DNA from: Emydura subglobosa | Lineage: Eukaryota > Chordata > Testudines > Chelidae | Assembly (NCBI GenBank): GCA_007922225.1 | Contig: ML679961.1 | Location: forward strand, 69,296,890-69,360,889 | Length of the DNA stretch: 64,000 bases | Direction: 5' to 3' | Shown: one piece after another, positions 8,926 to 64,000 of the stretch | Layout: each line of letters starts with the position of its first letter | How positions within the stretch are numbered: the first letter of the stretch is position 1 | The notes under the pieces: generated by a model | What the model was told of the DNA's origin: nothing | What the model saw: the letters and a program-made list of their open reading frames with translations, nothing else | The model's database searches: none | Made by a program: the position numbers and the translations under genes

Positions 8926-10140
8926 ACTGAAAAGCATGGAAAATTAGCAGTTAATTAAATAAACAATACTATGGCAGCCCAATTTTTAGACAATTCTGAT
9001 AGGAATTCTTCTGGTAAATCCCCACTCACTTTGAACACATAAGAATTCACCAGATGATAACATTGTATATTACTACCCAATTACAATGAGTCCCTTAGTT
9101 ACTCATCATGACTGCTTTATGGATTTAGTTTCACAACATAATGAGTTCATCCTGACTTCCTGAAACATCTTTAGAGATTATACACACTTACTTTTCATCA
9201 CAATTTGTGACAATGTTAAAGAAATAAGACAGCATGACCACTTCTTAAAAAATAAAACCACTTTTGAATTACACAAATAATTGACTTTCTGTAAACATTT
9301 CTGAGAATCCTGCAGTGTTTAGCAAATGAACAATCCCACTGATTCAGCAACGATGACTCAAATGGGTAAGATAAGGCCCAAATGTTTTTGAGAAACATAT
9401 GATACTTTTACAAGCCACAGATACATGTGGGAAGGATATGTGTTATCTATGTTTATCAGTATTATATATTACAGGCATAAAGACTAATACATTACAATCA
9501 TATTATTATTTATATTCCTGTGGCACATAAGAAACCTAGTCATGGATCTGTGCCCTATTGTGCTAGGTGCTGTACAAACACAGAACAAAAATATGTTCCT
9601 TGTCTCTCTTTTCATATTTATTTTAAATTATATACATTAAAACACTTTGGATATATAAACAGTATTACATTTCTTTATATTTTGATTATATTGCTATTTA
9701 AAAAACACCAAATACCCTCATTTGTCTCTCATATATAACTCTTATTGCAACATTAGTAGAGCTAACTTAGCCTGTTTTGATTCCTCCTGAAATTTTAACT
9801 TTCCACTATTTTTGAAAATCAGTAGTTTATAGATTGCTGCTGTTTTCTGTTACTCAGTACAACATGAAACCAAATGGCATCATCCAGAACTATAGAATGG
9901 AAAACAAACAAATAAATAAACTTAGAAAAATAAAAACAAGTGCATTAAGGGGAAAGAGAAGAGCAGCAGTGAAGGTAAGAAGATGAAATCCTCCCTGCAT
10001 CCAAAGTAAATGTGTGTACTAATTCTAAAAACAATATGGCAAAGAACTGGCAGTTTGTTGTGGATAGAGGAAGGTTGCTCCTGGGAGGTTATAATTTGCT
10101 TTGGGAATAAGGATGTATGAATTTGTCCTCTCTTCCTCCT
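8926..10140. other. AT-rich non-coding DNA with one repeat fragment
   Basis: A fragment at about 9545-9600 (ctaggtgctgtacaaacaca) belongs to the interspersed family also seen at 4520-4600 and 26035-26110. The rest shows no gene. Confidence 0.5.
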
Positions 10141-10700
10141 GCCGTGGTGCATTACCAAACAGCCCCTTGAATCGGGATGAATTGATAGGGAAACTTGTGT
10201 TTCTCCTCTTCTTTTTCCCTGATACATCAGCTTCCTGTGCAGAGCCCTTTGCACTGGGGATGATTATTCTTGTTTCTTCTACTGCCCTGTTGCATCAACT
10301 TCCTGTGCAAAGCCCCATGCATTGGGGTAATGATTCTTGTGTTTTTTCCTGTTGCCCTGATGTATCAGTTTCCTATACAAAATCCTTTACATTAGGATGA
10401 AGATGCTTGTGTTGCTGCTGCCTTAGTGCATCAACTGCCTGTGTAAAGCCCCTTGCATTGGGGTGAGTATTTATGTTTCTCCTCCTGCCATGTTGCATCA
10501 ACTTCCTGTGCAGAATCTCTTGCATTGGGGGTGAGGATGCTTGTGCTTCTGCTAGTGCCCTGGTGCATCAGCTTCCTGTGCAGAATCCTTTGCATTGGGT
10601 GAGGATGCTGATGTTTCTCCCCTTGTCTTGGTGCATCGGCTTTCTTGCGCAGAGCCCCTTGCTTGCATTGGGATGAGGATGCTTGTGCTGCTCTCCTACC
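10141..10700 (+). repeat. Minisatellite, about 70-bp unit, eight diverged copies
   Basis: Units of about 67-80 bp recur, each with a core like gtgcatcaacttcctgtgca followed by ttgcattgggrtgaggatgc and a pyrimidine-rich link. Cores start near 10148, 10225, 10294, 10362, 10428, 10495, 10563 and 10631. Copies differ by several bases. Because unit length is often near a multiple of three, several frames stay open with repeated LHQLPVQ-type peptides, but I do not regard these as coding. The array directly abuts the CpG island. Confidence 0.9.
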
Positions 10701-11900
10701 GCTGCCTGCCCCGGTGCATGCTCCCTTTCTCCCTCCCCCCCGCGCTGCTGCTCCACTAGAGTTTGCTGCCCTACTTCACTCTACTTTAGTTTCACTCACT
10801 TTACATCCGGGTTTTTTCCCTAGGCAATGGGAGCCGTAGTACAGCCCGTTCCTTAGGCAAAGGGAAATAAATTCGCCGCACCAACACGTCAAGTAGTCCC
10901 CTCAGGAGGAGCCAGCGAACCCTCCCTCCCCCTCCAGCGGAGGCCGGCGACCCCTCCTTCCTTATGCTCAGGGACGCGGCATGGGGTTTCAGGGAGGGGG
11001 AACCCGCCTCGCCCCCAATCTCTGTTTCCTCCCCAGTCTCCTCCTCCTCCCCTTCCCCGCTTCAGAGCCGGAGTAGTTGTGAGAGAGCGTGTCGGGCGCG
11101 CGCAGCGGCAGCTCGGGAGCGCGCCCCAGGCAGGCAGGGAGGCCGGCGGCGGAGCGATCCCGGCGAGAGGGTGCTGCGGCCGGGCCGGGTGAATGGGATT
11201 GAAGAAGAGTTCAGCTTCTCGGCTTGTTTTTGTGTCACAGTTTCTCTTCTCCTGCGCCTCTTCTGCTTCGTTCCTTTCTTCCCGTCCGCCCCCTGCTCCC
11301 CCCGGCAGGAGGAGCCCCCCGGGGAGAGGGGGAAGGAAAAGGACCTCCCAGAGGAGAGAGAGAAGAGGAGGAGGAGAAGGGAGCAACCTACCATCTTCCA
11401 CTCCCAGCTTAGATTAAAGAAAGTGAGAGGAGGAGAGAGAGGAGCCCAGAAGAGGGGGACAGGGAGGCCCAGAGGAGCCGCAGCACCTTCCCCCTATGAA
11501 GAAGAGCCCTCCCCCTCAGAGAGAGGTCCTGCCAGGGGGACCCCAGCCAGCCACCAGCAGCACCACCACCAGCAGGGTGTAGTATCCCACCTTTTGGATT
11601 CGCCTCCTCCTCCCCCCTATTCTCTCCTTCTGCTTTTTTCTCTGAGTAGCTCTATCCCTCCCCCGTGCTTTTCTGTCTGTGGCTCAGGGAGTTGGTTGGG
11701 GGAGGGTGGAGGAGGATAGCTGGGGTGTGGGGGGAGGAGCAGTCTCCATAGGACTCTTCAGCCAACTTGGAGCTAAGGAGCAACAACTTCAGTGTTGTAA
11801 CCCCCGCCCCCCCCCAACCCGACCCCCAAGGGGGTAAAGCCCTAGGGGGCCGTGTCCTTTCTCCCGCCCCTGCATGCACTGAAGTAAGTTTCTGAGGAGG
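10701..11900 (+). promoter_or_regulatory. CpG island / promoter of an unidentified host gene
   Basis: The stretch is strongly GC-rich with many CG dinucleotides (densest about 11060-11190: gcgtgtcgggcgcgcgcagc), while everything on either side is AT-rich. No TATA box is evident, typical of CpG-island promoters. The strand is inferred from the strong donor at 11884. I cannot identify the gene. Confidence 0.8.
11050..11883 (+). other. Putative non-coding first exon, ends at splice donor 11884
   Basis: The GC-rich, purine-rich transcript-like stretch ends at GAA followed by gtaagt (donor GT at 11884-11885), a strong consensus splice donor, after which composition turns AT-rich. A long frame through it (10964-11719) is made of Ser/Pro/Arg/Gly-rich low-complexity residues and is probably not translated. 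The start is only approximate because no transcription start can be read from sequence. The next exon was not found in the window, which implies a first intron over 52 kb or a gene that runs elsewhere. Confidence 0.55.
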
Positions 11901-14900
11901 GGGAGAGAGATGGAGGTGGGTGACACATTGGGGCTGTGGTGAGGAGCAGGGGGAAGGAGATGACACATTGCACTGTGGATGGGGTGGAGGAGGGAGGTTT
12001 ATCCCCTCCTCTGCTGGTTTCCTTCAGAATGATTATTTCCAGGCCCTTTGCTGTTGGTTTGATTCCCCCCCCCTGTGATGCTGATAGGGAAGTTTTACTA
12101 TTGTCTTTGAAACGATGCTGCTTTGATGATTGAGAATTTGTAGTAAAGCTGCTACTGCAGTTTTTTTATTTTTGTTTTTTGTTTTGCTTTAATTTGCCTT
12201 TATGACCAGAGCAGCACTGGGAAAATTCCGTTTCTTCTGCAACTTGTAATTCAGAAGTATCTCTTGCCCCCCTTATTCTGAGGCTGCCCTTCTTGCACAG
12301 GTACACGGTTCAGTGGAAGGACACCTCTGGGATTTCACACTCCTACTTTGGCACATATTTGTGGTGATTAGAGATGTGTACCTTTTCTCTTCCATTTCTC
12401 TCTGTGTGTGTGTGTGTGTGTGTGTAGGAGGAATGGGGCTGTGTGTGGGACTCTGCCATTTGGTCTAGACCCGTTGTGCACGCTCCTCTCATCACTTCTT
12501 TCTCTGTTTGCTTTTTTATTATTCTGAGTTTCGCTGTTGATAGGATTTCTTTCTCTCTGACTGCATTTGCAGCATGATGGGTGCTTGCAGGTCTGCACTG
12601 TTAGGTTTTAGATTAATTTATATTGGATCATCACATGGAGTCCTTCATTCAACTTCTACTCACTTGAGTGTCACAAAATGAGTAGTATGCTCTGGTTAGG
12701 GTACAAATGTGCTTCAGCAGAGTAATTTCCAAGTTCTGATTTTGATGGGACGAGATTGCTAGTGGAGAGGAGGTTTTTTGTTTTCTTTGGTTTACAAATG
12801 TCATCGCAATTCAGTCACATGTTAGAATATTCTTTGTTTAGATATCAAAGTAGGGTATCCAATATGTCCCCACTTTTTATTGTAAATAATCGTGATCCCC
12901 TGCAAGTTTTATAAATTTATAATTGTAGATGTGAGGTTCTTGATGTTTGTTTGGACCAAGCACTGAACTTGACAATGAACTTTTGTTCGTTTTTTTTTTT
13001 TTTTTTTTTTTTTATCACAGTAGTGGATGGATTAAAAAAACTTCCTATTGGGAACAATAATTGGCATGTTGTGTATAGTAGGTCTGAAAAGGGAAACATC
13101 TGAGATGGACCACTTGTGCTCAGGAATGTTAACATTTTAATAATTAGAGACTGACAGCTACATTTGCACTCAGGTTAATTTGGAGGCATGCAAGAGTTTT
13201 CTCAGTCTAAGTTCATTATAGGAAAGAATGAATTTATCACATTAAACATATTTGCTTGGTTTCAGAAGGAAGACTAAAAGGCAGTTACCCCATATGCTTA
13301 TGTTAATGGGGCACTTTTACAAATATCTTAGAATTTTAATTATCAAATGTGCTTTCCTCTATTTATAATGTTGGACATCCTTGGTTTGCTTTTTGCATTT
13401 CACTCAACTTTGGCAATGAAAATAACTGGTTAGTTTCACTTTCTATTGGATCAGTTTCATCTTTGTGATTTCTTCCTTTGCTTACCCAAAGCTGGCGCTG
13501 TTTGGATTTGCTATGTTGTAGGGGAATGTTTAATTTTAATGACAAATAAGTTTATTTTAATATTTAATGTGAAGAAAAATGGTAATAGGTTTTATTGAAG
13601 TTTAATAAAAAAAACTTAAAAACAATCTAAGTTTTGTGCCTTAACCTACTTGCCAGTGTTCCTGTAAAGATATAATGTAAAAAACAAACACTTCCCCCAC
13701 AAAATCTAACCTATAAACTTTTGAAAGATTTTAGGTAAAACATATGAATGGTCCTGAGTTCATAATCATGTTCAACAGTAATTTACAATTTTAAATACAA
13801 AGTAGTATTCAATAAAGGACAGTTTTTAAGAGCAAAGCCCCAAACCAACCAAACAAAAACCTCACCCACAGCACAACTACAGTTTATAAACCTATACTAG
13901 TTAAAGTAGTTACTCACCCACATTTTAGTATAAACATCATTTTAAAAAAAAATATGGGAAACTCTTGATTTCTGAATGGAATTACCAGTTTTCCTAGAGT
14001 AAAGAATTTAGTATTTTAGTAAACATGATGGTTTTAAAAATGTATTTTTCCATGGAATTGTTTTTCACTGTAAACTTGCAGCTTTATTGAGATGGAGAAA
14101 TTGTGTGAGTATGAGGTTATACTTTCTAGAAGTTTGAGCAACTGACAGCGGGGATGTTAAGCAGTCCCTTTACATGATTGGAAAATTAAAGCTATCCTCT
14201 CCTTTGTAGACTGTCACCTCTGAGGTTCTCTTTTTGTACAAGCAAATTTTTGTCAGGTATTGTCCAGCAGGAGGTGCTTGTGCAGCGAATGCCCATCAGC
14301 AGCTGGAAGTCAGCTATATTATACCTGTAACATGCTTGAGCTCTACTGATCTGGGCAATGAAAGATCTGATATTGTTCCCACATTTGGGTTTCAGTTAAG
14401 TAACAAGCCTGGCGTACTGATACATAATTAAAAGGAGCCTCTCACAAGGTATTTTCATAATTTAAAAAGTATTTTTACTATTGTCTATTGGACAACTGGA
14501 AGGTTAATATTTGAAGTCATTTTTGTTTTCTTTTCCTTGTCCATGTAGGGTTATTTATGCATCCTGGTCTGGGCTACTCTTGCCAGTTTGTTTTTATAAG
14601 GGTGCAAAAGCCTGTGGGGTTGCTGGCATTTACTTTCTTCCCTTTTGGAAGTGAAAATATAGAAACATTACCTTTTTTGGGAAGAAGTTGTAGGAAGTCA
14701 TGGATTTTACAGGTGTGGGTTTTTTGTTTTAAAGAAATATTTATATGTTAAGTTTTGGCCATCCAACTTTGACAGTAAGTCAGAGTTTTAATGTAGGATT
14801 TTAAAAGTGTATTCCCCCTCCTTAGTGCTGAACTTGCATTTCTATTCATAGTACAGGGTCTGAGTATTTCTTATCCTGCCTATATTCCTATTTTGCGGGT

Positions 14901-49590: not shown

Positions 49591-50968
49591 AAATTCTAGT
49601 GTCTTAAATTGAGAGCCCAATTACTGAGACACTCAACATTATTGGAGACTTTGCAAATTTTGGCTTTAATCTCTTTGTGCCTCATTTTGAGGTAAACTTC
49701 CTACTACTTCACAGGGTTGCAGAGAAAAAAAAATCAATGTTTTTTAAGATCAGAATTTTCTATGATGCTCATCACCATAGTATCTGTGAGAAAACCAGTA
49801 ATTCTTTATTCACTTCAGGGCTTGGTTAGTGTACAGTAAGTAAGGCCTGGGGCTGCACGAATGATCACGGTAAAAAGAAATATTGAACAGATGCCTCATT
49901 CCCTAGGCGACAGCCATCCTCTGTACTGAACTAGGCAGAGTTCCTGTGGGAAAAATAGTATGTGATCATGTAATTAAATACTGCATCATAATGTATATAT
50001 GCACACAAGGACAAAATTAAGGTTGCATAGGCAGTCTTAATTCTGGCATTTCATAACTCTTGAGTTCTTGACTTTTCAAATCCTAACATTCTTTTAACAC
50101 TTCTTTAATGTAATACATTTAATGAAGAAGTGAAGAGGGCACAAGCCTGTTTTTCACCTCTTTAGGTCATCTTTTAGTGACTTGCTCAAGGCACACACAA
50201 GTCACTTTACGGAGCCTGAATTAGAACTCTGGAATTTGTGTTTTGCCGTCCTTTGAGTTCATAGATGCTCTCAGGCTGGGGATTACAACTCTTTGCCTCC
50301 TTTCCTCTTTCCCTCCCTCTAGCCCAAATGGCTACAGAGAAGTGTGTGGGTTGTAACCATCCTGCCCTTCCCATATTACTATACTGGAAGGGGGTGGGGT
50401 TCTCACTTGATGGAATTGGGGCCCCAATATGGAGGAGGAGCATTACAGCACTGGGACATCCTCTGTCTCTAAAAATGGGTGATTCCTTCTTTAAAACAGA
50501 GAAAAATATGTGTTTTTTTGTACTTCCTACAAATGAATATTAAGACTTGCTCACTCTAAGGTTGTAGTTAGAGGTCTTGTGAAAGCTTCTTTGCTTAGCT
50601 TTCTACAGCCACAGCCTTTTATATCACTCAGACATAGTCACAACTTTAGTATGTTGTTGATGAAAGGAGACCTATTGTGTTTGTGGTGTTAAATGATCTC
50701 ATGTGTGTGCGCTTTAGAGCCAATGAAGGGGCTGCTGATGAAGGAAAAAAATGCAACCAAATGTGGGGTTTAAATGAGAGAGAAATAGTTATAATTTGTG
50801 AATTAAGGCTTATCTTGAAATAGCTGTCAGTGATGTGGATATTTCAAATCTTGTACTGCTTACATCCAAATTACTGTTGTATAGGTTGCTCAGTGGACCC
50901 TTACACAGAAATCAACCCCCCAAAAAAACTTCACTTCACCAACATTTAGAAATTGTTATAACTTTCCT

Positions 50969-50999
<31 letters not shown>

Positions 51000-51584
51000 G
51001 AATTAATCCAAGTGCCATACTAAGGAAAAGATTAGTTCTAAACGCACAATCCAAAAACTCTGACACTAAGAGGATATGCATATTCACTACGCAACAGTAG
51101 GCATTAAATTTCCTGCACAGATTCCTCCCCAGTTCTGTAAATAGATTAGCCAAGTGCAGTCTGTCTCCTGCATTTGCATTGAGTCCCATTGACTTTGGTG
51201 GGAGTGCACATGATCACATGAGTCTTCGCTAATGCATCTAGTTGTAGGATAGAGGCCCAGAGCCTAAGCTCTACAGTGGGATACTATTGATCATGTTGTA
51301 AGATCAGGGACTAAGATGGTTTCTAGTAAAGTAAAAAGACTGTTTTGGATTTTTAGTCTGTGACAAAGTTAGTTGAGCCTAAATACAAATGAGAATGCAC
51401 TTGTAACCATCCTAGTAAATATCTTAGAGCAGAGCTATTTTAATTGAAGTATGTATGGGGTCAGGCCCTAATCATGCTTGGACCCAAGCTTTGCTATAAT
51501 TTATTGTCTCATAGACGTTTAAGAAACAATGATGGTCAGTGGTACAAGGGGCCTATCATCAATCAAACGTTATCCCTGTCCACC
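49591..51584. other. AT-rich host DNA flanking the viral element
   Basis: No gene or element recognised. Contains a poly-A run at 50979-50999. Composition changes abruptly to GC-rich at about 51585. Confidence 0.5.
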
Positions 51585-52200
51585 TGTTACTGGAAGTCCC
51601 GCCCCATCCGCCCACCCGTCACCAGAAGTCCCGCCCCATCCTGTCACCTGACTTCCGGCCTGACCTGGGAGCCCCCACCCCTTGACCCTTAGGCCCAGTC
51701 CCCTCACCCTTAAGCCCCGCCCCTGTCACTGGAAGTCCTGCCCAACCAGTCACCTGACATCCGGTCCCACCCCAGGTTATGCCTTCTGGGTCAAGATGGG
51801 CACCTGACCGGAAGCAGGTGGTGTGACCCCTCCAAGAATGCCTCCTGCCCGCTCCCCACCAATGGGAGACTTTCGCCCCCTGAGACCGCCCCGAGAGCGG
51901 GATTGGACCCCAGATGGCCACTTGACCAGAAGGAGTGGTGTGATCCCTCTGCCAATCGGTGTACTTTTCACGCTGAGAGCGGGATTGGCCCAGATAGGGC
52001 ACGGGGAGGAACGGGGCGCCCCCTCTGCCAATTGCAGCGGGCTTAGGCTGTCCCAGAAGGATGCACCAATCAAAGATGGGGTGGAATCTCTGGGGCTCGA
52101 CTGTTGGTTGCCGCCCCCGGAACTCTCGGGGCCTTTAAAGCGTCTCGTTTTTGAGACCGCGTGGTTCACAGCTCGTGGAAAAACGCCGAGAGGAGAACAT
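51585..52200 (+). promoter_or_regulatory. GC-rich promoter-like block at the left end of the viral element
   Basis: About 600 bp of GC-rich sequence holds six CCAAT boxes: forward at 51859, 51952, 52028 and 52066, and reverse (ATTGG) at 51902 and 51984. Its left part has diverged repeats of an agaagtcccgcccc-type motif (about 51590-51745) with ETS-like and GC-box-like sites. A TATA-like tttaaag at 52133-52139 lies about 60 bp before the first ATG. It probably drives the downstream plus-strand genes and may include the left terminal repeat. Host factor binding is inference from motif consensus only. Confidence 0.65.
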
Positions 52201-52261
52201 GGACACCTTCACCCCTCCCTTGAGGCCTTTGGAAGTTGTTTTGGCTCCTGGGGGTCTTTAA
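52199..52261 (+). CDS. Short upstream reading frame, 20 codons
   Basis: ATG 52199 sits in a good initiation context (aacatgg) and is the first ATG after the TATA-like site. Its frame stops at 52259-52261, 70 bp before the accessory gene start. It could be a regulatory upstream frame or chance. No similarity is known. Confidence 0.3.
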   Translation: MDTFTPPLRPLEVVLAPGGL

Positions 52262-52331
52262 CTGCCTGTGGAGAAAACGCTGCACCAGCGACAGTTCTGA
52301 GGACAGCCCTTTGGCTCAGCTTTTGTTCAAC

Positions 52332-52739
52332 ATGCCAGAACCCAAAACCTGAGCGACCGTGAGCCAGCCCGATGAGCCTGACTGCCTCACGTTGTTCATC
52401 CCTACAGAGCCATCGGCGGGGCAGACTGAAGGAAAAGACGCGGCACAGGTAAAGAAACGAGCATGGGTGGGGAGTCTGAGGGGATTAGTAACCGATCCGG
52501 GTTGTGTAGATCTAAAAACAAAAACTAAAGCCAAGCAGTAGAGACTTACAGCTATTTCTTTTCTGAAAATCTCTTGACAGGTCAACGATGCCTTTCTACG
52601 GGCCTTTGAGAACCTACAAATCGGTAGCCCTGTGAGAGTAAATCAATCATGCGTCAGCTGTTTTTGCTTGTGTGTGAAACACCTATCTGAGAGGGAAACA
52701 GCAAAATGGAAGAATGAACCAGCTCACGGGATGCTGTAA
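52332..52739 (+). pseudogene. Two-exon accessory gene of the viral element, one nonsense codon
   Basis: Exon 1 runs from ATG 52332 to 52448 and ends CACAG before gtaaag. The intron, 52449-52580, ends ctcttgacag. Exon 2 continues in the same phase from 52581 for 52 codons to TAA 52737-52739, and AATAAA follows at 52764-52769. Phase, splice sites and poly(A) signal all agree, so this looks like a genuine compact gene of about 90 residues. Exon 1 carries an in-frame TGA at 52350-52352 (a change from CGA by CpG decay would explain it). Exon 2 has a cysteine cluster, CVSCFCLCV. I do not recognise the family; its position beside the promoter block suggests an early accessory function. Confidence 0.6.
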
Positions 52740-52763
52740 AAGGGCGTGTTAAACCAGGCGGTT

Positions 52764-52769
52764 AATAAA
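52764..52769 (+). terminator. Poly(A) signal of the accessory gene
   Basis: AATAAA lies 24 bp after the exon 2 stop and before the integrase, giving the first gene its own 3' end. Confidence 0.6.
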
Positions 52770-52868
52770 AATAGTTTAAATTTGTCAGCATGACCATGTT
52801 CCTCCATACTTGTGTTAGAAAACAGGTATTACAAGTGACAGCCATGTTAACGCAGGCGGCTCTTTTAA

Positions 52869-53928
52869 AAAAAAATATATTACACCCCTGGGGAAATTGG
52901 GAGCTTCGGAGGGGTGAACTCTCTTTTTCAAGCGCCTGAAAAGTATAGTGAAACTTTGAACAGGGGAGCAGTAACAGCCTGGCTGTTGAACCAGGACACT
53001 TACACTTTACACAAACCATCTCGAATACGTTTTAAAAGAACAAGATAGTTGTTTCAGATGTGGACACACAATGGCAAGCAGATTTGGTGGATATGCAAAG
53101 GTTCGCCAAATACAACAGCGGTTTTAAGTACATCTTAACAGTGATAGACATTCTATCCAATTATGCCTGGGTCTTAGGCCTCAAAAACAAGATGGGCGGC
53201 GAAGTAGCTGAGGCCTTTAAAGGTATTTTCAGCGAAGATCGCGTGCCTCAGAAATTACAAACCGATCAGGGAAAAGAATTTTTAAATAAACCTTTAAGCA
53301 GGTTGTTAAAGCGGCACGGTGTTTGCCATTTTGTTACTAATAACGAAGTCAAAGCAGCGGTTGTGGAGCGATTTAACAGAACTTTAAAATCTAGGATGTG
53401 GAGAAATTTTACCTCCTGCAATACCTTTTGCTACATCGACACGTTACCTGAGTTTATAAAGAGTTACAATCGGAGCTTTCACAGAGCCATACGCACCAGA
53501 CCCGTCGATGTTAACCCCTCAAATTCTCTGAAGGTGTGGAAAACGGTATACAGAGACGGTTTAGAATGAAAACCGGTTGTTGTCCCTTTTAGAAAAGGCG
53601 ACTACGTGAGAGTATCTAAAACCAAAGGAGCTTTTGAAAAAGGTTATGAACAAAGTTTATCAATGAGATATTCATATTGGATGAAACCTTAATTAAGGGA
53701 CAGAGACCTGTATACTGATTAAAAAATTACGTGGGCAAGACAGTTGCTGGATTTTTTTTTTTACCCTGAAGAATTAGAAAAAAGTGAACCCCAAATGGGA
53801 CAAGGTTTACAGGATTGAAAAAGTTCTAGCGGGAAAAGGGAGAAAAAAAGCAGCTGTTGGTGAAATGGTTGGAGTGGCCCGAGAAGTTTAACAGCTGGGT
53901 GGAAGCTTCTCAACTCTGCGACGTTTAG
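52869..53928 (+). pseudogene. Retroviral-type (DDE) integrase with chromodomain, Polinton/adintovirus lineage
   Basis: This enzyme would join the viral DNA ends to host DNA. The N-terminal part is readable at 52869-53045 (TPGEIGSFGGVN, NQDTYTLHKPSR), ending at TAG 53046. The catalytic core is in another frame, 53042-53566: Asp in WQADLVDM (53081), Asp in LQTDQGKEF (53264) and Glu in VVERFNRTLK (53366), 33 residues between the last two. A TGA at 53567-53569 interrupts it, but the same frame continues with an SH3-like stretch (GDYVRVSKTKGAFEKGY) to TAA 53690. After further shifts, 53810-53928 shows a chromodomain signature (VKWLEWPEKFNSWVEA). At least three frameshifts and one nonsense codon make it a pseudogene. 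The core frame lacks an ATG of its own. Confidence 0.93.
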
Positions 53929-53972
53929 ACGCAGAAGAAAACGATTACTCCTGTAAAGAGAGGGGAAAGAAA

Positions 53973-54712
53973 ATGAGCGATGGGGGCTTTTACGTCACTT
54001 CGCTCAGCAACACCAGCTTTGGGGGTTTTCCCCAAAACACCAACTCGAACTTTACCGTGCAGCTAATTAAACCCTTGGATCTCCCAGATGCCTGGGAGGT
54101 CGGTTAGTGGAAATACAGTACACGCACAGCTGGAACAACATCAACGAAGATACCCTTTTCAAAATCACCTTTGTAGATAAGAAATGGAGTTTCGTCCTAC
54201 GACGAGGTTATTACTCGTCCATGCCCAAATTACTGGATCATATGAACAGCACCATGGCTCGTCACACCGGGACACCTGAGGTGGTCATGAACTATGATCC
54301 CGTGGGTACAAAAGTTAGACTTAAGACTGCTGATGTTGCTTATATGTTTTCTTCGGTCGGAAAGCTGGCTAATACTCTGGGTTTGTACCCCAAGAACAGC
54401 GTCCATAAAATCCCCTTCTCAGCAGACATCACAGGGGGTTTCAACTCTTTGTATCTGTACATGGACATCGAGGAACATCAGTTTGTGTGGGACTTTTCTG
54501 TTCCCCTGTTACACTGCATTCCCATTCGAGGAACGAATAACGAGTTTATCACCATCACCTACGATAAACCGCATTATGTCCCTGTCAGTAAACACCACCT
54601 CAACACCATCACCATTGAAATAAAGACAGACCAGAACAGACATGTCTCAATTCGCTCCGGCAAGGTGATCGTCAAGCTGCACCTGTGCTCCCAGAGAGAG
54701 GGAGGCTTCTAA
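53973..54712 (+). pseudogene. Candidate minor capsid (penton-type) protein, one frameshift
   Basis: About 245 residues. It starts at ATG 53973 (MSDGGFYVTSLSNTSFGGF), reaches a TAG at 54105-54107 through a one-base shift, and continues in another frame from about 54100 to TAA 54710-54712 (IQYTHSWNNINEDTLF ... HHLNTITIEIK). The GGFYVT start and the EIQYxHSWNN segment are conserved in a virion protein that Polintons and adintoviruses encode just upstream of the core and major capsid genes. It ends with beta-rich sequence, fitting a single jelly-roll vertex protein. Penton identity is inference from order and size. The next gene starts 15 bp downstream. Confidence 0.65.
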
Positions 54713-54727
54713 AAAACAAAACAAAAC

Positions 54728-55183
54728 ATGGTGATCCTAAAAAATTACGGTGACCCCACTGTCTACAGCAACTATTACAGAGCCCAGGCTGGATATGTCC
54801 TTCCCGGTTATCACGGGTCCCCTGTGATATATGGTGCTGGAGTGGGCGGAATATTCTGTAGCCTCTTCAGAAAAGCCATACCGCTTTTGAGGAGTGGGCT
54901 AGAGATTATTAAACCCCACGTCAAAACCGGGGGGAGGCAAAACGTGGTAGGCAACGTCTCCCGGGCTGTTTTGGAGAAGGTGAAGAAACCGCCTGCGCAG
55001 GAGGGGTCGGGGCTGATGTACATTAAAAGGAGAAAGAGAAAGAGGAACGTGTCCTACCCACGACGCACGGGTCCCCTGAAGCCCTTTAAAAGAGAGGCTG
55101 TTACGCATGGGGCCAGCCATAAGCGAAAGACCAAGGGAAAGCATAGGAGACGCTCACCACCTGGTAAAAAAGACATATTTTAA
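54728..55183 (+). CDS. Basic virion core-like protein (adenovirus pX/pVI-like arrangement)
   Basis: An uninterrupted 151-codon frame, the only complete structural gene here. Residues about 35-60 form a Gly-rich then amphipathic stretch (GAGVGGIFCSLFRKAIPLL) followed by a helix around 62-85. The last 50 residues are highly basic (KRRKRKRNVSYPRR and later KRKTKGKHRRR), suited to binding packaged DNA. In adintoviruses a small basic protein with a GxGGxF...RKAxPL motif lies between the penton-type and major capsid genes, as here. The ATG is 15 bp after the upstream stop, and the next ATG is 5 bp after its own stop. Function is inferred from family position and composition. Confidence 0.7.
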   Translation: MVILKNYGDPTVYSNYYRAQAGYVLPGYHGSPVIYGAGVGGIFCSLFRKAIPLLRSGLEIIKPHVKTGGRQNVVGNVSRAVLEKVKKPPAQEGSGLMYIKRRKRKRNVSYPRRTGPLKPFKREAVTHGASHKRKTKGKHRRRSPPGKKDIF

Positions 55184-55188
55184 TCAAC

Positions 55189-56456
55189 ATGGCTTTCTTT
55201 CACTGCGGGTCTGAAGAGTGCGCCAAATCTGAGCTAGACTTGTTCCAAATAGCCCCCACCCAGACCAGCATCGAGAAAAGCATCTACATCAAGGTGCCAC
55301 TGCTATTGGCCATTACGGAGGCATCCCATCTCAGCTTCTTTATAGCCGAGAACAGCATAGATTATATGGATTTAAACAACACACTTCTGTACCTCTGTTG
55401 TAAGATCGTAAAGGGAGACGGAATCACCCTTGCCTGCGACGCCGTGGTGGGCCTGGTGAATTACCCCATGGCTTCTATTTTCAGCCAGCTGGATGTCATG
55501 CTGGGAGACCGCTTCATAAGTCAAAGCAATGACTGTTATCCTTACAGGGCCTTTATAGAAGCGATGCTCAATTACAGTGTCGACACCCTCGCCACGCAAT
55601 TTTCTGCTGGCCTATTTTTCAAAGACACGGCACTGGACAGCAAGAATCTAGGGTTTGTCAGGAGGTCAAATCTGACGGACGATAGAGCTGTTGGGCCATC
55701 TGCACAGCGACCTGTTTTTTCAAGAAAAACTTTTGTTGAACGGCGTGCATGTGAAAATTAAACTGACGCGCAGCAAAGATGCCTTCTGCTTAATGGGCAA
55801 TGGAGCCGAAGGCTATAACCTGCGCATCGTCTCAGCGTTCCTTTTTGTGAAGAAAGTACGGTTGGCCCCGGGCATCCGCCTGGGGCACACTGAGGCCCTG
55901 CTCATCGCTAATGCTAAATACCCGGTGGACTGCATGGGAATGGAAGTGATTAGCATCCCTGCAGGCAGCAGGGTCAGTAACCATGAGAACCTATTCTTGG
56001 GACAGCTACCCAAAATGCTTGTTTTGGGTTTTGTGGATAATGATGCCTTCAGTGGAAGTTACGCTAAAAACCCCTTGCACTTTAAACATTATGATATTAA
56101 TTTTGTGGCCTTGTACGTGGGTGGTGAACAGATACCCACCAAGCCTCTGCAATCGGACTTTGAGGCCGGGCGCTGCATGAGGGAGTACATGAATCTGGGA
56201 CAGACAGTAAACACATGAAAGATTGTGCGCTGCTCATCGACCATGTGGAATTTGCACAGGGTTACACATTGTTTGCCTTTGACCTGTCTCCCGACCAGGA
56301 ATGTGCTGACCACTATTCCCTGATTAAAACCGGGAACCTGAGAGCAGAAATACGTTTTGCGAAGGCTTTAACGGCTACCTTCAATATGATTGTGTGTGGG
56401 GTTTTTGACAACGTCATAGAGAAATCAGAGCAGAAATGTTCTTTGACTACATGTGA
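55189..56456 (+). pseudogene. Candidate major capsid protein (hexon-like, F54H12.2-like family), frameshifted
   Basis: Reads from ATG 55189 (HCGSEECAKSELDLFQIAP) to about 55690, then in a second frame to about 56214 (EKLLLNGVHVKIKLTRSKDA, KHYDINFVALYVGGEQIP), then a third to about 56430 (ECADHYSLIKTGNLRAEIRF), and a last shift leads to TGA 56454-56456. Total about 420 residues. The KSELDLF-x(4-5)-TQTSIEKS start and YSLIxTGNLRAEIRFA end are hallmarks of the capsid family annotated in animals as F54H12.2-like and carried by Polintons/adintoviruses, which I take as the major capsid. Three indels break the frame. The protease ATG follows 2 bp after the stop. Confidence 0.8.
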
Positions 56457-56458
56457 AC

Positions 56459-56826
56459 ATGGACACCGTGCAGCTCTTGTGCGTCTTATCAGCAGACCCT
56501 GACACGAAACAGGGTTTCTTAGATGTGTTCCCTAGCGATTGGCTCCCCGACGGCAAGCTGTCTTGGAGACCCCTGGGTTTGGTGGTCAACACGCATCCAC
56601 ACAACCAACTGGGTGAACGCTGGCTGGCCTTGTACCTGAAGAAGCGTGACCACGGAGAGTTTTTTGACTCATACGGACACACACACACACACACACACAC
56701 ACCCACCCCCCAACAGCGTGTTGTTTCCTAGAAGCATTATGAAATTTTTAAACAAAAATGCCACCGATATTGCATTTCACACTAATTACAAGACCCCTGT
56801 TTTGTCGCCTGTGGCTATCACTGCGT

Positions 56827-56862
<36 letters not shown>

Positions 56863-57064
56863 CCACCATATCAAGGGTTTACCTTTTGACCAGATTTTAA
56901 AATTGTATTCTAACAACTTAGTGCAAAACGATCAGATGTTGGTGAATTTTGTAAGAAATATAAAAAGTAAATTCTTGGGCGTGCCTGGTCTTGCTCAAAA
57001 CATGTTTCAACAAGCCCAGACGTGTGTATCTTGTAATGACTTTCATAGCTGTATTTCTCAATAA
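56459..57064 (+). pseudogene. Adenain-like cysteine protease, microsatellite- and homopolymer-disrupted
   Basis: This enzyme would cleave virion precursors. The N-terminal half (56459-56675) is intact: FPSDWLPDGKL, NTHPHNQLGERWLALYL, then GEFFDSYG. The expected catalytic His of the GEHW-type motif is Arg (codon CGC, 56618-56620). An (AC)n run (about 56679-56702) then replaces sequence after FDSYG. Residues SIMKFLNKN continue in another frame, the active-site CGYHC follows in the first frame again (56810-56824), and a poly-T run of about 30 (56829-56858) splits it from the C-terminal helix (LKLYSNNLVQNDQMLVNFV) at about 56872-57064. The TAA (57062) overlaps AATAAA. Clearly inactive. Confidence 0.85.
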
Positions 57065-57065
57065 A
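57060..57065 (+). terminator. Poly(A) signal overlapping the protease stop
   Basis: AATAAA at 57060-57065 contains the protease TAA (57062-57064), closing the plus-strand capsid/protease cluster. Confidence 0.75.
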
Positions 57066-57113
57066 GCGCCCCTGGTGAGGGGTTTAAAAAAAAACAATTG
57101 ATGTCTGGGTTTT

Positions 57114-57154
57114 TTTATTAAATTGTTTAAAGAAAAAAACATACTTTTTTTATT
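57114..57154 (-). terminator. Two poly(A) signals for the minus-strand gene cluster
   Basis: On the minus strand AATAAA occurs at 57154-57149 and 57119-57114, about 40 and 75 bp beyond the last minus-strand stop (57193). With the plus-strand signal at 57060 they define convergent transcription. Confidence 0.7.
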
Positions 57155-57192
57155 TAAAGCAAAAACATTACCATTTTAGAGCATGAAAAACA

Positions 57193-57832
57193 TTACACGC
57201 TGAGCCATTTAGATCTTTTAGCCAGCTTTTGGTTTTTAGGAGGCAAAAAAGGTTTATGATCAACCCTGGCCACGGTCTTCAGGTGCTCCAAAAGACCCCT
57301 GTTGGCCACGTTGCCCATGATGGAAGATGGTGCGTTTAGTTCTGCCATGATGCCTATCAACACGTCCCATCCTTTTGGTTCGTGCTGGGAACGGAGCGTG
57401 TTTGGGTGACGGCCCTGACACACAAGCCCCTTTATTGTCCCTCGAAGATTTATTTTTATCCTGTCCCAGCTTATTTAGCAATATTGTTGCATTTTTCTTA
57501 TAGCACTTACCGACACTATGCCATACTTCCTGAGCAACAGGGTCAAAGGTTTTTGGTGGTTCTAGGAGCGTGTTCTGTTCCTGTTTTGGTAGAAAGAGAC
57601 TTATTTTCCCTTGAGCCACGTTGCGCTGCTTCATGTACATTAGGTACCTCTGAAGCATGGCGATGTATAGTTTAGCCTTTTCATGTTCATCTAAGTCAGT
57701 CCTCTGAAGAACAGACTTCATTGCAGCATCCAGCAAGCGAGTTGCGGTCTTTCTGATATTTTTCTTCGGGGGAGCCCTTAATTGCTTCAACTAGCGGCTG
57801 GGCACCAGGTACGTTTTTTCTGCGTGCTCCAT
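57193..57832 (-). pseudogene. Conserved Polinton/adintovirus protein of unknown function
   Basis: About 210 residues. The likely start is ATG 57832 (MEHAEKTYLVPS), with an in-frame TAG at 57793-57791; the same frame then runs to about 57430 (LDEHEKAKLYIAMLQRYLMY), and a frameshift passes into 57423-57193 (GWDVLIGIMAELNAPSSIMG), ending at TAA. The EKAKLYxxxLQRYL helix and the Pro-x-GW-DVLI... C-terminus are features that I recognise from a protein carried by many Polintons. No enzymatic motif is visible. It is the last gene of the leftward cluster. Confidence 0.65.
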
Positions 57833-57849
57833 TATTGATTAGTCAAAAG

Positions 57850-58162
57850 GTCAGTTGGTAGAGGGGTAGCAAAATGTAACAGAGGTCCGATTAAACCCTC
57901 TGGACTGCTTCACCAGATCCTTTTTTCTTTTAAATGAGACCCTCTTATTACAGAGAGTTTTTATAAATGTGCGTCTCTTTTTCAGCACGTGCCCTTGATT
58001 CTATGTCAAAGGTATGTTTCCTTTTAAAGTATTCAATGCTATTTCTGAGATGGCCGCCACTAAATCGTCAGAAGCCGAACACAGTATAGCCTTCCTTTGC
58101 TGTGGGGATGATTTGCTAAGTAATTTTAAAAGGACCAAGTTTATTTTCATGCAGCTGGACAT
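57850..58162 (-). pseudogene. Small basic Polinton/adintovirus protein, one nonsense codon
   Basis: The first ATG after a TATA box is at 58162. The frame reads LLKLLSKSSPQQRKAIL then ALNTLKGNIPLT and meets TAG at 58003-58001. Beyond it the same frame continues with a Lys/Arg-rich part (KRRTFIKTLCNKRVSFKRKK) to a TGA at about 57852. The PxQRKALL...LKGNxPL pattern followed by a basic tail is typical of a short protein conserved in Polintons; its role is unknown, possibly nucleic-acid binding. The end coordinate is approximate. Confidence 0.65.
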
Positions 58163-58209
58163 GTTTTCGGCCAGCCAGCCTGACTGTTTAAAAAGGACCG
58201 ACCGACAAG

Positions 58210-58883
58210 TCACCTCTTTTTATACCCGGCTGTTGTTCTTTTTAAAGCATAAACCTCCAGCCAGTCTGGAGGGAAAAGACTGGTTCTTGGTCTATAAGCC
58301 TCTGGTGTGGAAGCGTTTAAATACACCACCAGGTAGCCGTAAGATTTTTTTGGTAGCATCCTCAAAAGCTTCTAGAAAGAATTGTGTCTTGCTGGGGTAC
58401 ATTTGCTGGGTGAGCGTGGCGATTTGTAATTTATTCCTGAGGTTTTTTTAACAGAACTGTGTACTTAGCGTTTAGGTCAACCGCGTGACTCTTTTTTCCC
58501 TGACAGAACATGTTCTGAACTATATACATAATGCTCAGGTTCCTGTAATGCGCATACTTGGTAAAGGCTTTCTCAATTTCATCGCTTTCACAAGCAGAGT
58601 TCATCAGATCGTCTATGATAATCATATTTACTTTATTGGTGGGAAACAAATGGTCATCGTCAAAAGAATCGGGCAGCCCCTCTACAAAATTGATGAAGGG
58701 ATATTTACCAAGCAGTTCTTTATACAGAGGCTTCCAACAACTGTAACACCACGTAATGTTCTCACGCGTGACAGACAGCATTTGCTCGGTGTTATCCAAC
58801 ATGTTTTTTATAAAGTAACTTTCCCTACAGTTGCTAGGCCCCACGAGAATTACAGAAAATGGGTGTTTCCACTGCATGTCCAT
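58210..58883 (-). pseudogene. FtsK/HerA-type DNA-packaging ATPase, Walker A lost
   Basis: This motor would pump viral DNA into capsids. ATG 58883 is 4 bp after the polymerase stop, the only good start. Residues 10-25 (SVILVGPSNCRESYFI) hold the Walker A loop, but the expected Gly-Lys pair is Arg-Glu (58826-58821), which should abolish nucleotide binding. Walker B (NMIIIDDLMN, Asp 91-92) is intact and a sensor-like IVQNMF follows. After about 58440 the frame shifts in an A-run, continues (QQMYPSKTQFFLEAFEDAT), shifts again in a second A-run near 58350, and ends FPPDWLEVYALKR to TGA 58212-58210. About 225 residues. Confidence 0.88.
58217..58224 (-). promoter_or_regulatory. TATA box for the small basic gene, inside the ATPase 3' end
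   Basis: Minus-strand gggtataaaaagagg; TATAAAAA occupies 58224-58217, 55 bp upstream of ATG 58162, and overlaps the last codons of the ATPase reading frame (stop 58212-58210). Spacing fits a start site near 58195. Confidence 0.7.
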
Positions 58884-58887
58884 TTTT

Positions 58888-61713
58888 TCAAAAGCTGTAG
58901 GGCAGCGTTTTAAATCCTTCTCTGAGGACCCTCTTGTTGTAAACAACTTTCTGCGTTTTCTTACGCATCTTTGTCTCTATTTGCCATTGGTTTTTGTTCC
59001 TGACGATAGAGGGTTGCTGCACCTCTATTTTTTTTGGAGGTGTTTTCCCCCAGGTCAGCGCTATAGTGCAGGACCAGATCTTTCAAACTGTCAAAGTTGA
59101 TCTTTTCACAGTTTGCTATGTTCAGGGTAAACCCTTTGACTTTCATACAGGCCTTTCCTCCTGACAGTTTGTACTCGTACGTTTTCGGACCGGCTGACAC
59201 AAACTCGGTGATGTGCTGATCTGGAGGGATTTTGCCTGTGAGGTCCCCTAAATAATCCCCCAGAGGGGGATTCCCGTCACCCTCCCTTTGCACAAATATC
59301 ACCGAGTCCGTGTCATGGTACAAGCACCGCTCTTGCAACCTGTCTAGCAGGTTGTACAGTTCCAAACGGGCATAAGTGGTGGTGAAACAGGCAATGAAGA
59401 CATTGGTATTGCCAGAGACCGAGTAGCGGTCTTTTGCGTGCTTCCAAGACACGCACGCTGTTTCATCATCGATAAACCCGCAGGACGAAACCTCGTAATT
59501 GGGGGAAAGGTACCCAAAGAGTTCATCGGGGTCTCTCACGATGCTGGTCTTGGGCAGGTTTGTTCTTTGGCCAAATTTACCCCACAGAGAATTTAAAAAC
59601 AGTTTAGCGATTTGACGCTTAGCAGGGTTCATGGTGATTTTGTGCGGGTGTAAACGCACACCTTCTTTCTGATAAAAATCATTAACGTACTTATTTTGCT
59701 TTTCTTCGTCCGCGCACCAGCTGGGATACCCCGAAGCAGGTGTAATTTTATGTACTCTGAAAAGAGTTTGTCAGATTTTTCTTTGAAATGCCAGATTTCG
59801 TAGATTTTTGCCACCGCGTGCCCGTTCACTACAGCCGCGTTCAGTTCCACCGTGCACCAAGTCCCCAGGAGGGCCCGTTCCTCGTCAGTGTGGGTGCACG
59901 TCTCCCGCTGCTCAGTTTCCGCACAGGTTTGACATAGCTCCCTATCCATTTCTATCACCACCTCCCATTCATGTCCCCAGAGAGTCCTGACTACATATCC
60001 TAATCTTTTCAGATAGTCGATCTTGGGCTGTGTTTTGTAATAAAGAAGCCCGAAAGTTGTCCCCATCATAGGGTTCAGGGCTTTTTCACGGTAACAGATG
60101 ACGCAGCCGTGAAAAAAACACCCGTTAAACTCAAAGGCCGTGCGTACCCCATCAACGATGGTGTAACCGTCTAGAAAGTAGGGGCCTACCTGTAACTCCC
60201 TGCCCCGTAACGCGTGACGTATCTCCATATTTTCTTTGTGAGCAGTATACAGCAGCCACTGAATAGATGGGGTCAAATATCTCTTTTTCTGCCGGTGATA
60301 GTTGTCGGGAGGGAGAAGGGCTACCATGTTAGACTCTAAAAACATAAATCTGGACATGGCCATGCAGACGGATGCCAGAGTTATGTACTGGAAAAGATCT
60401 ACACACGGTTTCATCTCCACGAATGTGCTAGAGCCTCTCTCTACCACATCTGACTTGGCCGTCATTTTCATGATCTCTTCTCTGTACAGCATACAGGTCT
60501 GTCTCAAAATTTTGACATCCTGCTTACGGTAATACGCAAGCTCTTTCTGCAAGTCAAACATATCGTTTTGGTAGTCCTGGTACTAGTTGAGAGAGTCTGC
60601 TTTCTTCTGGGGCATCATGCTGTCGATGCTGTAGTGCTCCACCCCGGGCACAGGTCCCACATAATTTTGGTTTTCTAAAGTGTTAAAAAAGTGTGGGAAG
60701 TACCCTTTGCTGCCTTCAAAACCCATAGCCTGGGGGAGCTTGCTAAGCTTCATGGGCAGGAAGTTTAAAGAATCTATAAAATGGATGCCCAGAGTCTTAA
60801 ATTCCACGCACAACAGTTTACTGCCCTGAGCTATCAACTCTACGCCCATCTTTTCCTTCAGTAACTCCCTGATGGCAAAGTAAGCGTCGTAACCTTGGGA
60901 ATTGTGCGCTATGAACATGTAGCCCCGAAACTTTTTGCTGATAAAGGTTTGGACAAAATTAGAAAGGTACTCGCCACCCTTGAATTCCCAAGATTTTTCT
61001 GGCTTTACGGACATAGCGAAAATGTAATTGGTCACGTGCAACCCCGTCTCCTGCGTGCACTCAAAATTGTAAAAAATATATTTTTCTGACTTTTCAGGCC
61101 TTCTAATGCTGTCCATAAAACACAAGTGACCATCTACACCACCGATGGTAAAACCGTGACACTGCATACAGCGCTGCCCTTCGCACTTACGCCCTTTGTC
61201 CACGTAAGATTGACACTTATCGCACAAAGTTTTAGACAGGCATTCAACTTGGTTTTTTGATGCAGCTTCTGCATGACCATCAAAACACTCTTGAAACCGA
61301 CAATACAATCTGCAGCTAGGACATCTCAATGAACACGTCAATGAACACGTCATGCTCAAGCAGAGGCGGCAATGGTATCCGCAAGAGTGGTCGTGACTGA
61401 ACACCATGTGGCAAAACTCAGTAATTTTTTGCCCCAAACAACCTTTTCACATCCAAAACCCCATAGTAATGTTCATCATGCTGCAGGATGAAAAATGTTT
61501 CGGGGTATACCGGACCCACCATTTAAAAAAAAAAACAAAAACCCACCTCCCTTTCGTCTTGTAAAGTACCACCTGTATGTTGACATGCAAATGCTGTTCA
61601 CGTGCCGCCATGTCACTGAGCATAACCTTTCTTTGGTCTGACCAACCGAGTTTTTCATGCAACTTTCTCGCCCCATCTAACAATTCTGCATCTGTAGGTT
61701 TGCAGTTGGACAT
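58888..61713 (-). pseudogene. PolB: Family B DNA polymerase (protein-primed type), heavily damaged
   Basis: The replicative polymerase. From ATG 61713 the order is: N-terminal part (HEKLGWSDQRKVMLSDMA); Cys/His-rich finger region (about 61415-61120); exonuclease motif I as YNFECTQ (Asp replaced by Asn, 61068-61066); motif II HNSQGYDAYF; then an in-frame TAG at 60585-60583; an insert with FEFNGCFFHGC; motif B NSLWGKFGQR (59593-59564); motif C YHDTDS (59320-59303); and a final frame ending VVYNKRVLREGF to TGA 58890-58888. Motif A (DxxSLYP) is absent: at about 59945 sequence jumps from the WGHEWE region to the CAETEQ region, implying a deletion of over 100 residues. Frameshifts lie at about 61530, 61435, 59690-59640 and 59030. 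A poly-T stretch was also inserted near 61535. Confidence 0.93.
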
Positions 61714-62321
61714 GACGGCCAACAATTAAAACATATCACCGTGTTCTCAACTACTGCTTAGCTTAGCTCAAGGCCTGCCTAACAAACAACAATTCAAGTG
61801 TTAAAAACACACCACCTTTAGCACAAAATAAAAAAATCCCCCCAGAGTCATTTAAAACACCCTTATCTCTAGCCCAACAGCAACTCAAACTTTAAAAAAA
61901 ATTAAAACACGCCATCAAAATACTTTTCAAGAAACACACTGCTTAACTTAGCTCAAAGCCTGCCTCACAAACAACAATTCAGGCATTAAAAACACACCAC
62001 CTTTTGCACAAAATGAAAAAAATCTCCACAGTCAATTTAAACACACAAAATAAACCCTGGTCTCACCAAATTTTTAAAAAAAACATTTTAAAACACAAAT
62101 TCAAAAACCAATTGCAAATATTTATCTTCCACCACATGGTAAAAGCAAGCTGGCACATGTGTAGCTGCACCTTTTGAATGGAAGAACAAGCATAATTTGA
62201 GTTAGTATGATACCACAAATGCATCAAACCCTCCACCCTGCAACCTATTTAATACCCAGGTTTTAAAAAAATTTAAACAGCATTAAACCCAACTATATAG
62301 TTTAAAAAATAGGGGTTTTAC
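61692..62321 (-). other. Putative leader intron of the polymerase transcript, with direct repeats
   Basis: Bounded on the minus strand by caag / gtaaaa (donor GT 62321-62320) and cctacag (AG 61693-61692). Joining at these sites would keep the polymerase frame (phase 1 on both sides). The acceptor has a weak pyrimidine tract, and a stronger one (ttgtttgttag, near 61777) is not phase-compatible, so the true acceptor is uncertain. The intron is A/C-rich on the plus strand and carries the 185-bp-period repeat. Confidence 0.45.
61753..62046. repeat. Direct repeat, about 105-bp copies at 185-bp spacing
   Basis: Copies at 61753-61860 and 61938-62046 share actgcttarcttagctcaa, gcctgcc, caaacaacaattca, attaaaaacacaccacctt and gcacaaaat, differing at about a dozen positions. 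They lie between the polymerase and its putative promoter. A replication or regulatory role is possible but unproven. Confidence 0.85.
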
Positions 62322-62376
62322 CTTGCCCTTGTGAAAGGCTGCTTGAAGATGCTGTTTCCATGATCAATAGATCACA
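62322..62376 (-). other. Putative short first coding exon of the polymerase transcript
   Basis: On the minus strand tctctttattgcag (acceptor, intron end 62377) precedes 55 bp holding ATG 62361 and 13 Ser/Gln-rich codons (METASSSSLSQGQ), followed by a caag/gtaaaa donor at 62321. A TATA box lies 184 bp upstream. These signals suggest a spliced leader, which I infer from sequence alone. Confidence 0.45.
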
Positions 62377-62544
62377 CTGCAATAAAGAGACGTATCATCC
62401 TTAGTAAAGATAGCATGAACAAAAGAGTAACATTATATAATATATACATTTTTCAGAGTTAAGAATAAGCAACATGCCTAGTTCAGCAGCAGCAGTTCAA
62501 ATAGTGTCTGTTAGGAGAAAGAACAGTCTCCAAAAAAGCTGAGG

Positions 62545-62552
62545 TTTTTATA
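62545..62552 (-). promoter_or_regulatory. TATA box, leftward (polymerase) promoter
   Basis: Minus-strand gaatggtataaaaacctcag; TATAAAAA at 62552-62545. It is the best core-promoter match between the polymerase start and the right edge and is oriented towards the minus-strand cluster. Confidence 0.6.
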
Positions 62553-63706
62553 CCATTCTGAGTCTTTCAAAGTCCAGTTAGCAAGTTGATTTAATCACTA
62601 CACCTCTTTAATTAATGGATACCCCACCCCAAATGTTCCCTTCTGTAACATGCACAACTGGTTTTTGAGACCTGTACAACTGGGGTACTTTTTTTTTTTT
62701 TTTTAATTTTTAAATTAAATTAAATTTTTTTTTCCTATTTGAATGAAACTGTAGGGCTTTCTTATAGTATTAAACAGTAATCGCCATACATAACAGTCCT
62801 TAATGTTACTTTGTAAAGCAGCCCCCCCCCCGCAGGACCTTGCAGATATCAATGAATGGCTTGGGTTGTTTTTTTTCTTTAATGATTAAAAGTTTTGAAA
62901 TAAAAATGGGTGTACCACAGCCATAGTAAGCACCCATAGCTTTTAAATGTTTGATTGTTCTTACAATATTTTTTAAATAAAAAAAATATGCTGAAACCTT
63001 AAAATATTTTAAAATAAAATGGATGTACCACAACCACAGTGTACACTCTACAAATAACATTGATTGTTATTACAACAAATGCTTTTTTAAAAATATGCAA
63101 GGTATGGTGGAGGCTTCGATTTTTTTATTTTGGTTGTTGTTAATATAGTATTTTAAACCTGTCATGACTTTGAGTTGCTAGAAGAAAAAATGACCCACCA
63201 GTTCCTTAGGCTTTATTTTTTAAACTGTCCAATTGTGTTCTACAAACCCCCAAGGTAATATTTAAACTATCCAATAACATTCAGCCACCTCCCTTACTGT
63301 GAGTGAGGCCCAGCAGACCTAATTACCTGATCACTAACTAACCCTGGTGGAAACAAAGGTTGGCTTCTTGGAATTCAGTGGGGTGGAGTGATGAGTCAGA
63401 GCCATTGTACTCAGACACATGGCTCAAACATTTCTGTTTTGTACAGATTTTTTTTCCTTTTACTTTAAACACTTTTTTTGCCCCTCCCCCCCCCCCCCCC
63501 AGGTTTCTACTACACACATTTCAGCTTTTTGCTGTAAATACACAAAGACACACTATCTGGGTTCTCACAAAAACGTTTTTTATTTAAAAGACATGCAGCC
63601 ATCTTGAAACATTTATCATTATTTTATTTATATATATATATAATGTAAGGCCCACACAGACCATCTTACAGAAACACAGATAGTCACAAAGCCCCTTTTC
63701 AATACT
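62553..63706. other. AT-rich viral or flanking DNA with a second direct repeat
   Basis: Holds homopolymers (poly-T about 62690-62704, poly-C 62821-62832 and 63483-63500), a short (TA)n at about 63630-63642, and two related segments of about 75 bp at 62899-62975 and 63013-63085 that share gtaccacaaccacag-like and gattgttnttacaa phrases. Frames that cross these homopolymers are not credible genes. Whether this is viral or host DNA cannot be decided. Confidence 0.5.
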
Positions 63707-63712
63707 TTTATT
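63707..63712 (-). terminator. Poly(A) signal of the right-edge gene
   Basis: Minus-strand AATAAA at 63712-63707 lies 5 bp beyond the stop TAG at 63720-63718. Confidence 0.6.
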
Positions 63713-63717
63713 TACAG

Positions 63718-64000
63718 CTAACACACCTGATATCGCATGTAGGGCCCCTTGCCATTCTCTAACTTAATCCTTTTGAATTTCTTATGAATAGTGTGCTTCC
63801 TAAGTAGGACTCTGTAACTTTTTGTGCGGACCAGACGATCCATATAACACTCTAAACAGCCATCCTCTGGTTTGGTCATTTTCTTTAAAACACTGCCGGG
63901 GTCTTGACCGAATTGCACAGCCTTTACCAAGGTCAACCCTTGTGCTAAATGTTTTTGAGGTAAGCAGAGACATTGCATAACATAACTTATGCCAATGACA
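63718..64000 (-). CDS. Unidentified reading frame, 3' part, continues past the window
   Basis: An uninterrupted minus-strand frame runs from the window edge to TAG 63720-63718; the first ATG inside is at 63978 (86 codons) but the frame is open further upstream. The C-terminus is basic (KHTIHKKFKRIKLENGKG) and there is a Cys pair (DGCLECY). The normal-looking amino-acid composition and the poly(A) signal right after the stop argue for a real gene, perhaps another viral one in the same leftward orientation. I do not recognise the family. Confidence 0.5.
   Translation of the reverse strand, partial: VIGISYVMQCLCLPQKHLAQGLTLVKAVQFGQDPGSVLKKMTKPEDGCLECYMDRLVRTKSYRVLLRKHTIHKKFKRIKLENGKGPYMRYQVC

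Follow-up and report, generated by a model that had tools for sequence, protein, structure and literature searches.

Very probable remains of a decayed Maverick/Polinton (adintovirus) element in a 64-kb stretch of DNA

Mavericks of vertebrates are built of two convergent modules, PolB-ATP-PM-PZ and INT-mcp-PW-Mcp-PRO (PMC8097293). The intact elements published from vertebrates have a mean length of 16.9 kb, the great majority of the copies on record are degraded, and turtles are among the hosts, with 101 copies in Terrapene carolina, one of them intact (PMC8097293). Adintoviruses are defined by a PolB with an OTU-like domain, a hexon and an rve integrase with a chromodomain (PMC11071296). Besides, a tortoise has yielded adintovirus reads and RT-PCR products (PMC10812802), and mammalian fossils have been sought using the box turtle polymerase as a probe (PMC9683012). 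In the NCBI taxonomy, the box turtle virus is Betadintovirus terrapene, of the Eupolintoviridae, and Adintoviridae is a synonym of that family. Here we describe a locus at approximately 51.58-61.7 kb of a 64,000-nt stretch of DNA (the window), which very probably holds the remains of a Maverick/Polinton (adintovirus, Eupolintoviridae) that integrated into a vertebrate germ line and later decayed.

Two convergent gene clusters

Reading the region from 50 to 64 kb from stop to stop in all frames, we found two closely packed gene clusters converging on each other at about 51.58-61.7 kb, with long frames crowding the part between about 53.0 and 61.7 kb. According to the open reading frame list, these frames sit where an earlier note on this DNA had placed them. 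The features of the locus are as follows:

51585..52150, no strand: GC-rich segment with short imperfect repeats of 24-32 nt units (GC windows; repeats D1-D4)
52190..53030, plus: left accessory region, no gene recognised (CpG observed/expected 0.60-0.77; three-frame reading)
53036..53569, plus: integrase core (rve), frame closing at a stop (Pfam rve 2.2e-11 on 53036-53566; PDB integrases)
53570..53928, plus: C-terminal part of the integrase, split over several frames, with a chromodomain remnant inside (Pfam Chromo; frame pieces)
53973..54712, plus: gene at the penton/minor-capsid position, one frame change near 54071-54107 (open reading frames; position as in PMC8097293)
54728..55183, plus: basic gene at the PW position, single open frame (open reading frame)
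55189..56456, plus: gene at the major-capsid position, split over at least three frames (open reading frames; end set at the stop 56454-56456)
56459..57064, plus: gene at the adenain-like-protease position, broken (frame pieces and position)
57193..57790, minus: gene at the PZ position, probably one frame change (open reading frames; position as in PMC8097293)
57800..58430, minus: region at the PM position, flanked by ATPase and PZ, in which all frames are short (frame pieces; position as in PMC8097293)
58431..58883, minus: gene at the packaging-ATPase position, open frame (open reading frame; motifs read by eye)
58888..61725, minus: type B DNA polymerase of the protein-primed type (DNA_pol_B_2 on three of five pieces; outer ends set by eye)
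61731..63700, no strand: AT-rich, CpG-poor segment (CpG observed/expected 0.124, host-like low; direct repeats)
63718..64000, minus: possible accessory open reading frame cut by the window end (AATAAA at 63707, just past its stop)

The 8,695-nt core contains nine stop-to-stop frames that are 170 codons or longer. Among 200 dinucleotide shuffles of the same core, none had more than two and the average was 0.195; in the first 51.5 kb of the window there are three such frames (282, 236 and 174 codons). Genes on the plus strand follow the order integrase, penton position, basic gene, capsid position and protease position, and those on the minus strand the order polymerase, ATPase position, PM region and PZ position. 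The clusters converge at about 57.06-57.19 kb. Between 56901 and 57300, AATAAA occurs at 57060 on the plus strand and at 57114 and 57149 on the minus strand; since this stretch is AT-rich, single words of this kind carry little meaning. The gene order is the one described for vertebrate Mavericks in PMC8097293, with several genes here being named by position.

Gaps of 2 to 15 bp between genes had been claimed earlier, and our reading agrees. On the plus strand we read 15 nt (54713-54727) and 5 nt (55184-55188), as well as 2 nt between capsid and protease (56457-56458) provided that the capsid gene stops at 56454-56456, which is a choice made by eye. On the minus strand, polymerase and ATPase are separated by 4 nt (58884-58887) if the frame 58888-59082 ends the polymerase, again a by-eye choice.

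Recognisable and putative genes

The integrase core (53036-53566) also matched PDB integrases, with 2.2e-05 at best. Besides, it matched phage transposase families with values up to 5.2e-11 and the NCBIfam model of the bacterial transposase IS481 with 2.7e-15, under the cut-off of that model. Because bacterial IS481 transposase models match as well, the core alone is not lineage-specific. Downstream, in a frame different from that of the core, a chromodomain remnant lies at 53830-53925 on the plus strand (Pfam Chromo 9.6e-6). The piece is 32 residues long and scores 25.9 bits where the cut-off is 25.1; its matches to PDB chromodomain proteins were 0.004 or weaker.

Regarding the polymerase, three minus-strand pieces matched Pfam DNA_pol_B_2: 58964-59770 (3.4e-10), 59632-60582 (1.7e-7) and 60586-61446 (1.9e-8). 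The other two, 61450-61725 and 58891-59082, gave no significant Pfam match, and an OTU domain was not found by Pfam on the two N-terminal pieces, 60586-61446 and 61450-61725. The piece 58964-59770 matched the phage DNA polymerase family phrog_1907 with 4.3e-22 and reached 0.29 at best against PDB. By tblastn it retrieved seven records from phages or archaeal viruses (26-34% identity, best 3e-6), one of which is annotated as a protein-primed DNA polymerase B.

The earlier note had stated that the sequence directly shows the motifs of an integrase with chromodomain, a penton-type protein, a basic core protein, a major capsid protein, an adenain-like protease, a packaging ATPase and a PolB. Pfam bears this out for integrase, chromodomain and PolB. 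For the remaining proteins, no library match reached significance where pieces were tried. In particular, nothing significant was obtained for the penton position in the libraries tried (Pfam, PHROG and NCBIfam among them), for the basic gene 54728-55183, for the capsid position or for the PZ position in the libraries tried, or for three pieces of the protease position in Pfam. The ATPase piece, whose P-loop as read by eye deviates from the Walker A consensus, had no significant library match, with weak values of 0.12 in PDB and 0.019 in PHROG. AlphaFold models of one capsid and one penton piece had pLDDT values of 32 and 35 and were unusable. Hence, the names capsid, penton, basic, protease, PZ and ATPase are putative, resting on position and on motifs that we recognised by eye as those of such proteins.

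Taken with the published two-module convergent order, the rve integrase with its chromodomain and the PolB with protein-primed relatives are the reasons for assigning the locus to the Polinton/Maverick-adintovirus lineage, as the earlier note had done. An active element of this kind would replicate its own DNA with the protein-primed polymerase, and its ATPase would package that DNA into a capsid matured by the adenain-like protease. The rve integrase would then insert the element, perhaps guided to chromatin by the chromodomain, and after germ-line integration in a vertebrate the element would have decayed.

Decay, ends and flanks

Pseudogenisation had also been claimed, and six of the eight gene positions (integrase, penton, capsid, protease, PZ and polymerase) do appear interrupted by frame changes or stops. 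These interruptions were called by eye where frames overlap, with no reference sequence to compare; the exception is the polymerase stop at 60583-60585, which has Pfam DNA_pol_B_2 matches on either side. Apart from this stop, which is in frame, the polymerase has one or two frame changes and perhaps a second stop. The protease position holds a CA microsatellite (56677-56706) and a run of 30 T (56829-56858). Two frames are still open, that of the basic gene (54728-55183) and that of the ATPase; that both were kept as domesticated host genes while the provirus decayed around them seems to us very improbable.

Observed/expected CpG is 0.653 over 51585-61730, versus 0.162 over the host flank 1-51500. 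Methylated vertebrate DNA loses CpG over time, so the high CpG of the element relative to the flank would agree with an insertion that is fairly recent, depending on the original CpG content of the virus.

On the left side, GC climbs from 0.36 to 0.56 near 51.5 kb within about 150 nt, and is 0.56-0.64 in 51585..52150 versus 0.30-0.43 leftward (200-nt windows in both cases). CpG observed/expected in the windows from 51500 to 51950 was 0.50, 0.21, 0.47 and 0.72, a less even rise than that of GC. The left limit at 51585 is this GC change and is a candidate boundary only; the segment 51585..52150 is possibly a left terminal region or a promoter/accessory region. The end motifs AGTAGT and AGAGAG were absent near 51.5 kb. 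Within 52130-52600 we noticed by eye a possible spliced accessory gene, with a TATA-like word followed by an ATG at 52199, a donor-like site near 52448 and an acceptor-like site near 52580.

On the right side, the segment 61731-63700 may belong to the host or be accessory DNA of the virus; an insertion or a truncated end would also be conceivable. Direct repeats of 84 nt, 185 nt apart and 90% identical, lie at 61753-62021. The hexamer ACTACT at 61750, the published right-end motif, located where CpG drops, was considered as the element end and rejected as a chance occurrence. With equal base use, any 6-mer should turn up about three times in 12.6 kb; moreover, the partner word AGTAGT is missing, and the hexamer is not linked to the left side by any inverted repeat. 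The length of the open reading frame 63718-64000 is unremarkable, as 99 of 500 shuffles reach 93 codons.

No terminal pair was present among the 25 longest of the 72 inverted pairs in 50500-64000, and the comparison of the left side (51400-53000) with the right side (61400-64000) yielded no inverted repeat, with a best minus-strand E of 1.8. The earlier description of a nearly complete gene set fits the core genes by position, and both ends are putative. Since the mean length of published intact elements is 16.9 kb (PMC8097293), the right end may lie past 64000.

Elsewhere in the window, a reverse-transcriptase remnant lies at 505-1288 on the minus strand, in which 878-1288 matched RVT_1 with 1.8e-5, under the Pfam cut-off, and 505-843 had no RVT match; by eye it looks CR1-like. 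This remnant and the low CpG would fit an amniote, and the probable turtle of the earlier note is a putative host only. The Pfam search of the flank covered three frames, and RVT_1 was its only match. The region 10200-12000 is GC-rich (GC 0.56 in 10001-12000), with a 70-nt tandem repeat at 10217-10687, and is possibly a host promoter CpG island. Its GC-rich stretch at 10.9-11.7 kb carries two of the three long flank frames, with long frames on both strands. Neither Rfam at the gathering threshold nor a tRNA scan gave any match in the window.

Alternative explanations and comparison with known elements

One could argue that the locus derives from another Polinton-related group, such as a Polinton-like virus or a virophage integrated in the host, since rve integrases or PolB occur in some of these groups too. 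The convergent two-module order that includes PolB, an ATPase position and an integrase with chromodomain is, however, that of vertebrate Mavericks and adintoviruses, and we regard such an origin as highly unlikely. Slightly less credible still is a contaminant or misassembled viral sequence attached to host DNA: the climb in GC within about 150 nt near 51.5 kb, along with that in CpG between 51.5 and 52.0 kb, could be read as a junction of this sort, but the interrupted positions, the microsatellite and T run at the protease position and the complete lack of N letters in the window point to a decayed germ-line insertion.

Looking for close relatives, we scanned viral_contigs with protein pieces (the ATPase, two polymerase, two capsid and the integrase pieces) and found none; because they depend on exact words of 8 residues, such scans may overlook distant relatives. 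Two entries obtained from DNA motif scans, L001 and L002, were discarded as relatives, their tblastn matches with 14 window pieces being at chance level (best E 0.032).

We conclude that the Maverick/Polinton element described here is a further copy of a known kind, because such elements are already published in turtles (PMC8097293). It would be one more fossil of a virus lineage documented across vertebrates and by itself raises no new question, and the locus could serve for orthology dating, given an identified host and its relatives.

Compared with the vertebrate Mavericks of Barreat and Katzourakis 2021 (PMC8097293), which have terminal inverted repeats, a 6-bp target duplication and 6-nt end motifs, our element showed no repeat pair in the comparisons made inside the window and no end motif near 51.5 kb; it has the same two convergent modules. 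The named reference of the adintovirus Beta clade is the Terrapene box turtle adintovirus (BK010890.1, PMC10812802), and our element may belong to the same beta lineage. Unlike this reference, our element has decayed, and the end of the window may truncate it. By the published description, the two are alike in the adintovirus-defining combination of a PolB and an rve integrase with chromodomain.
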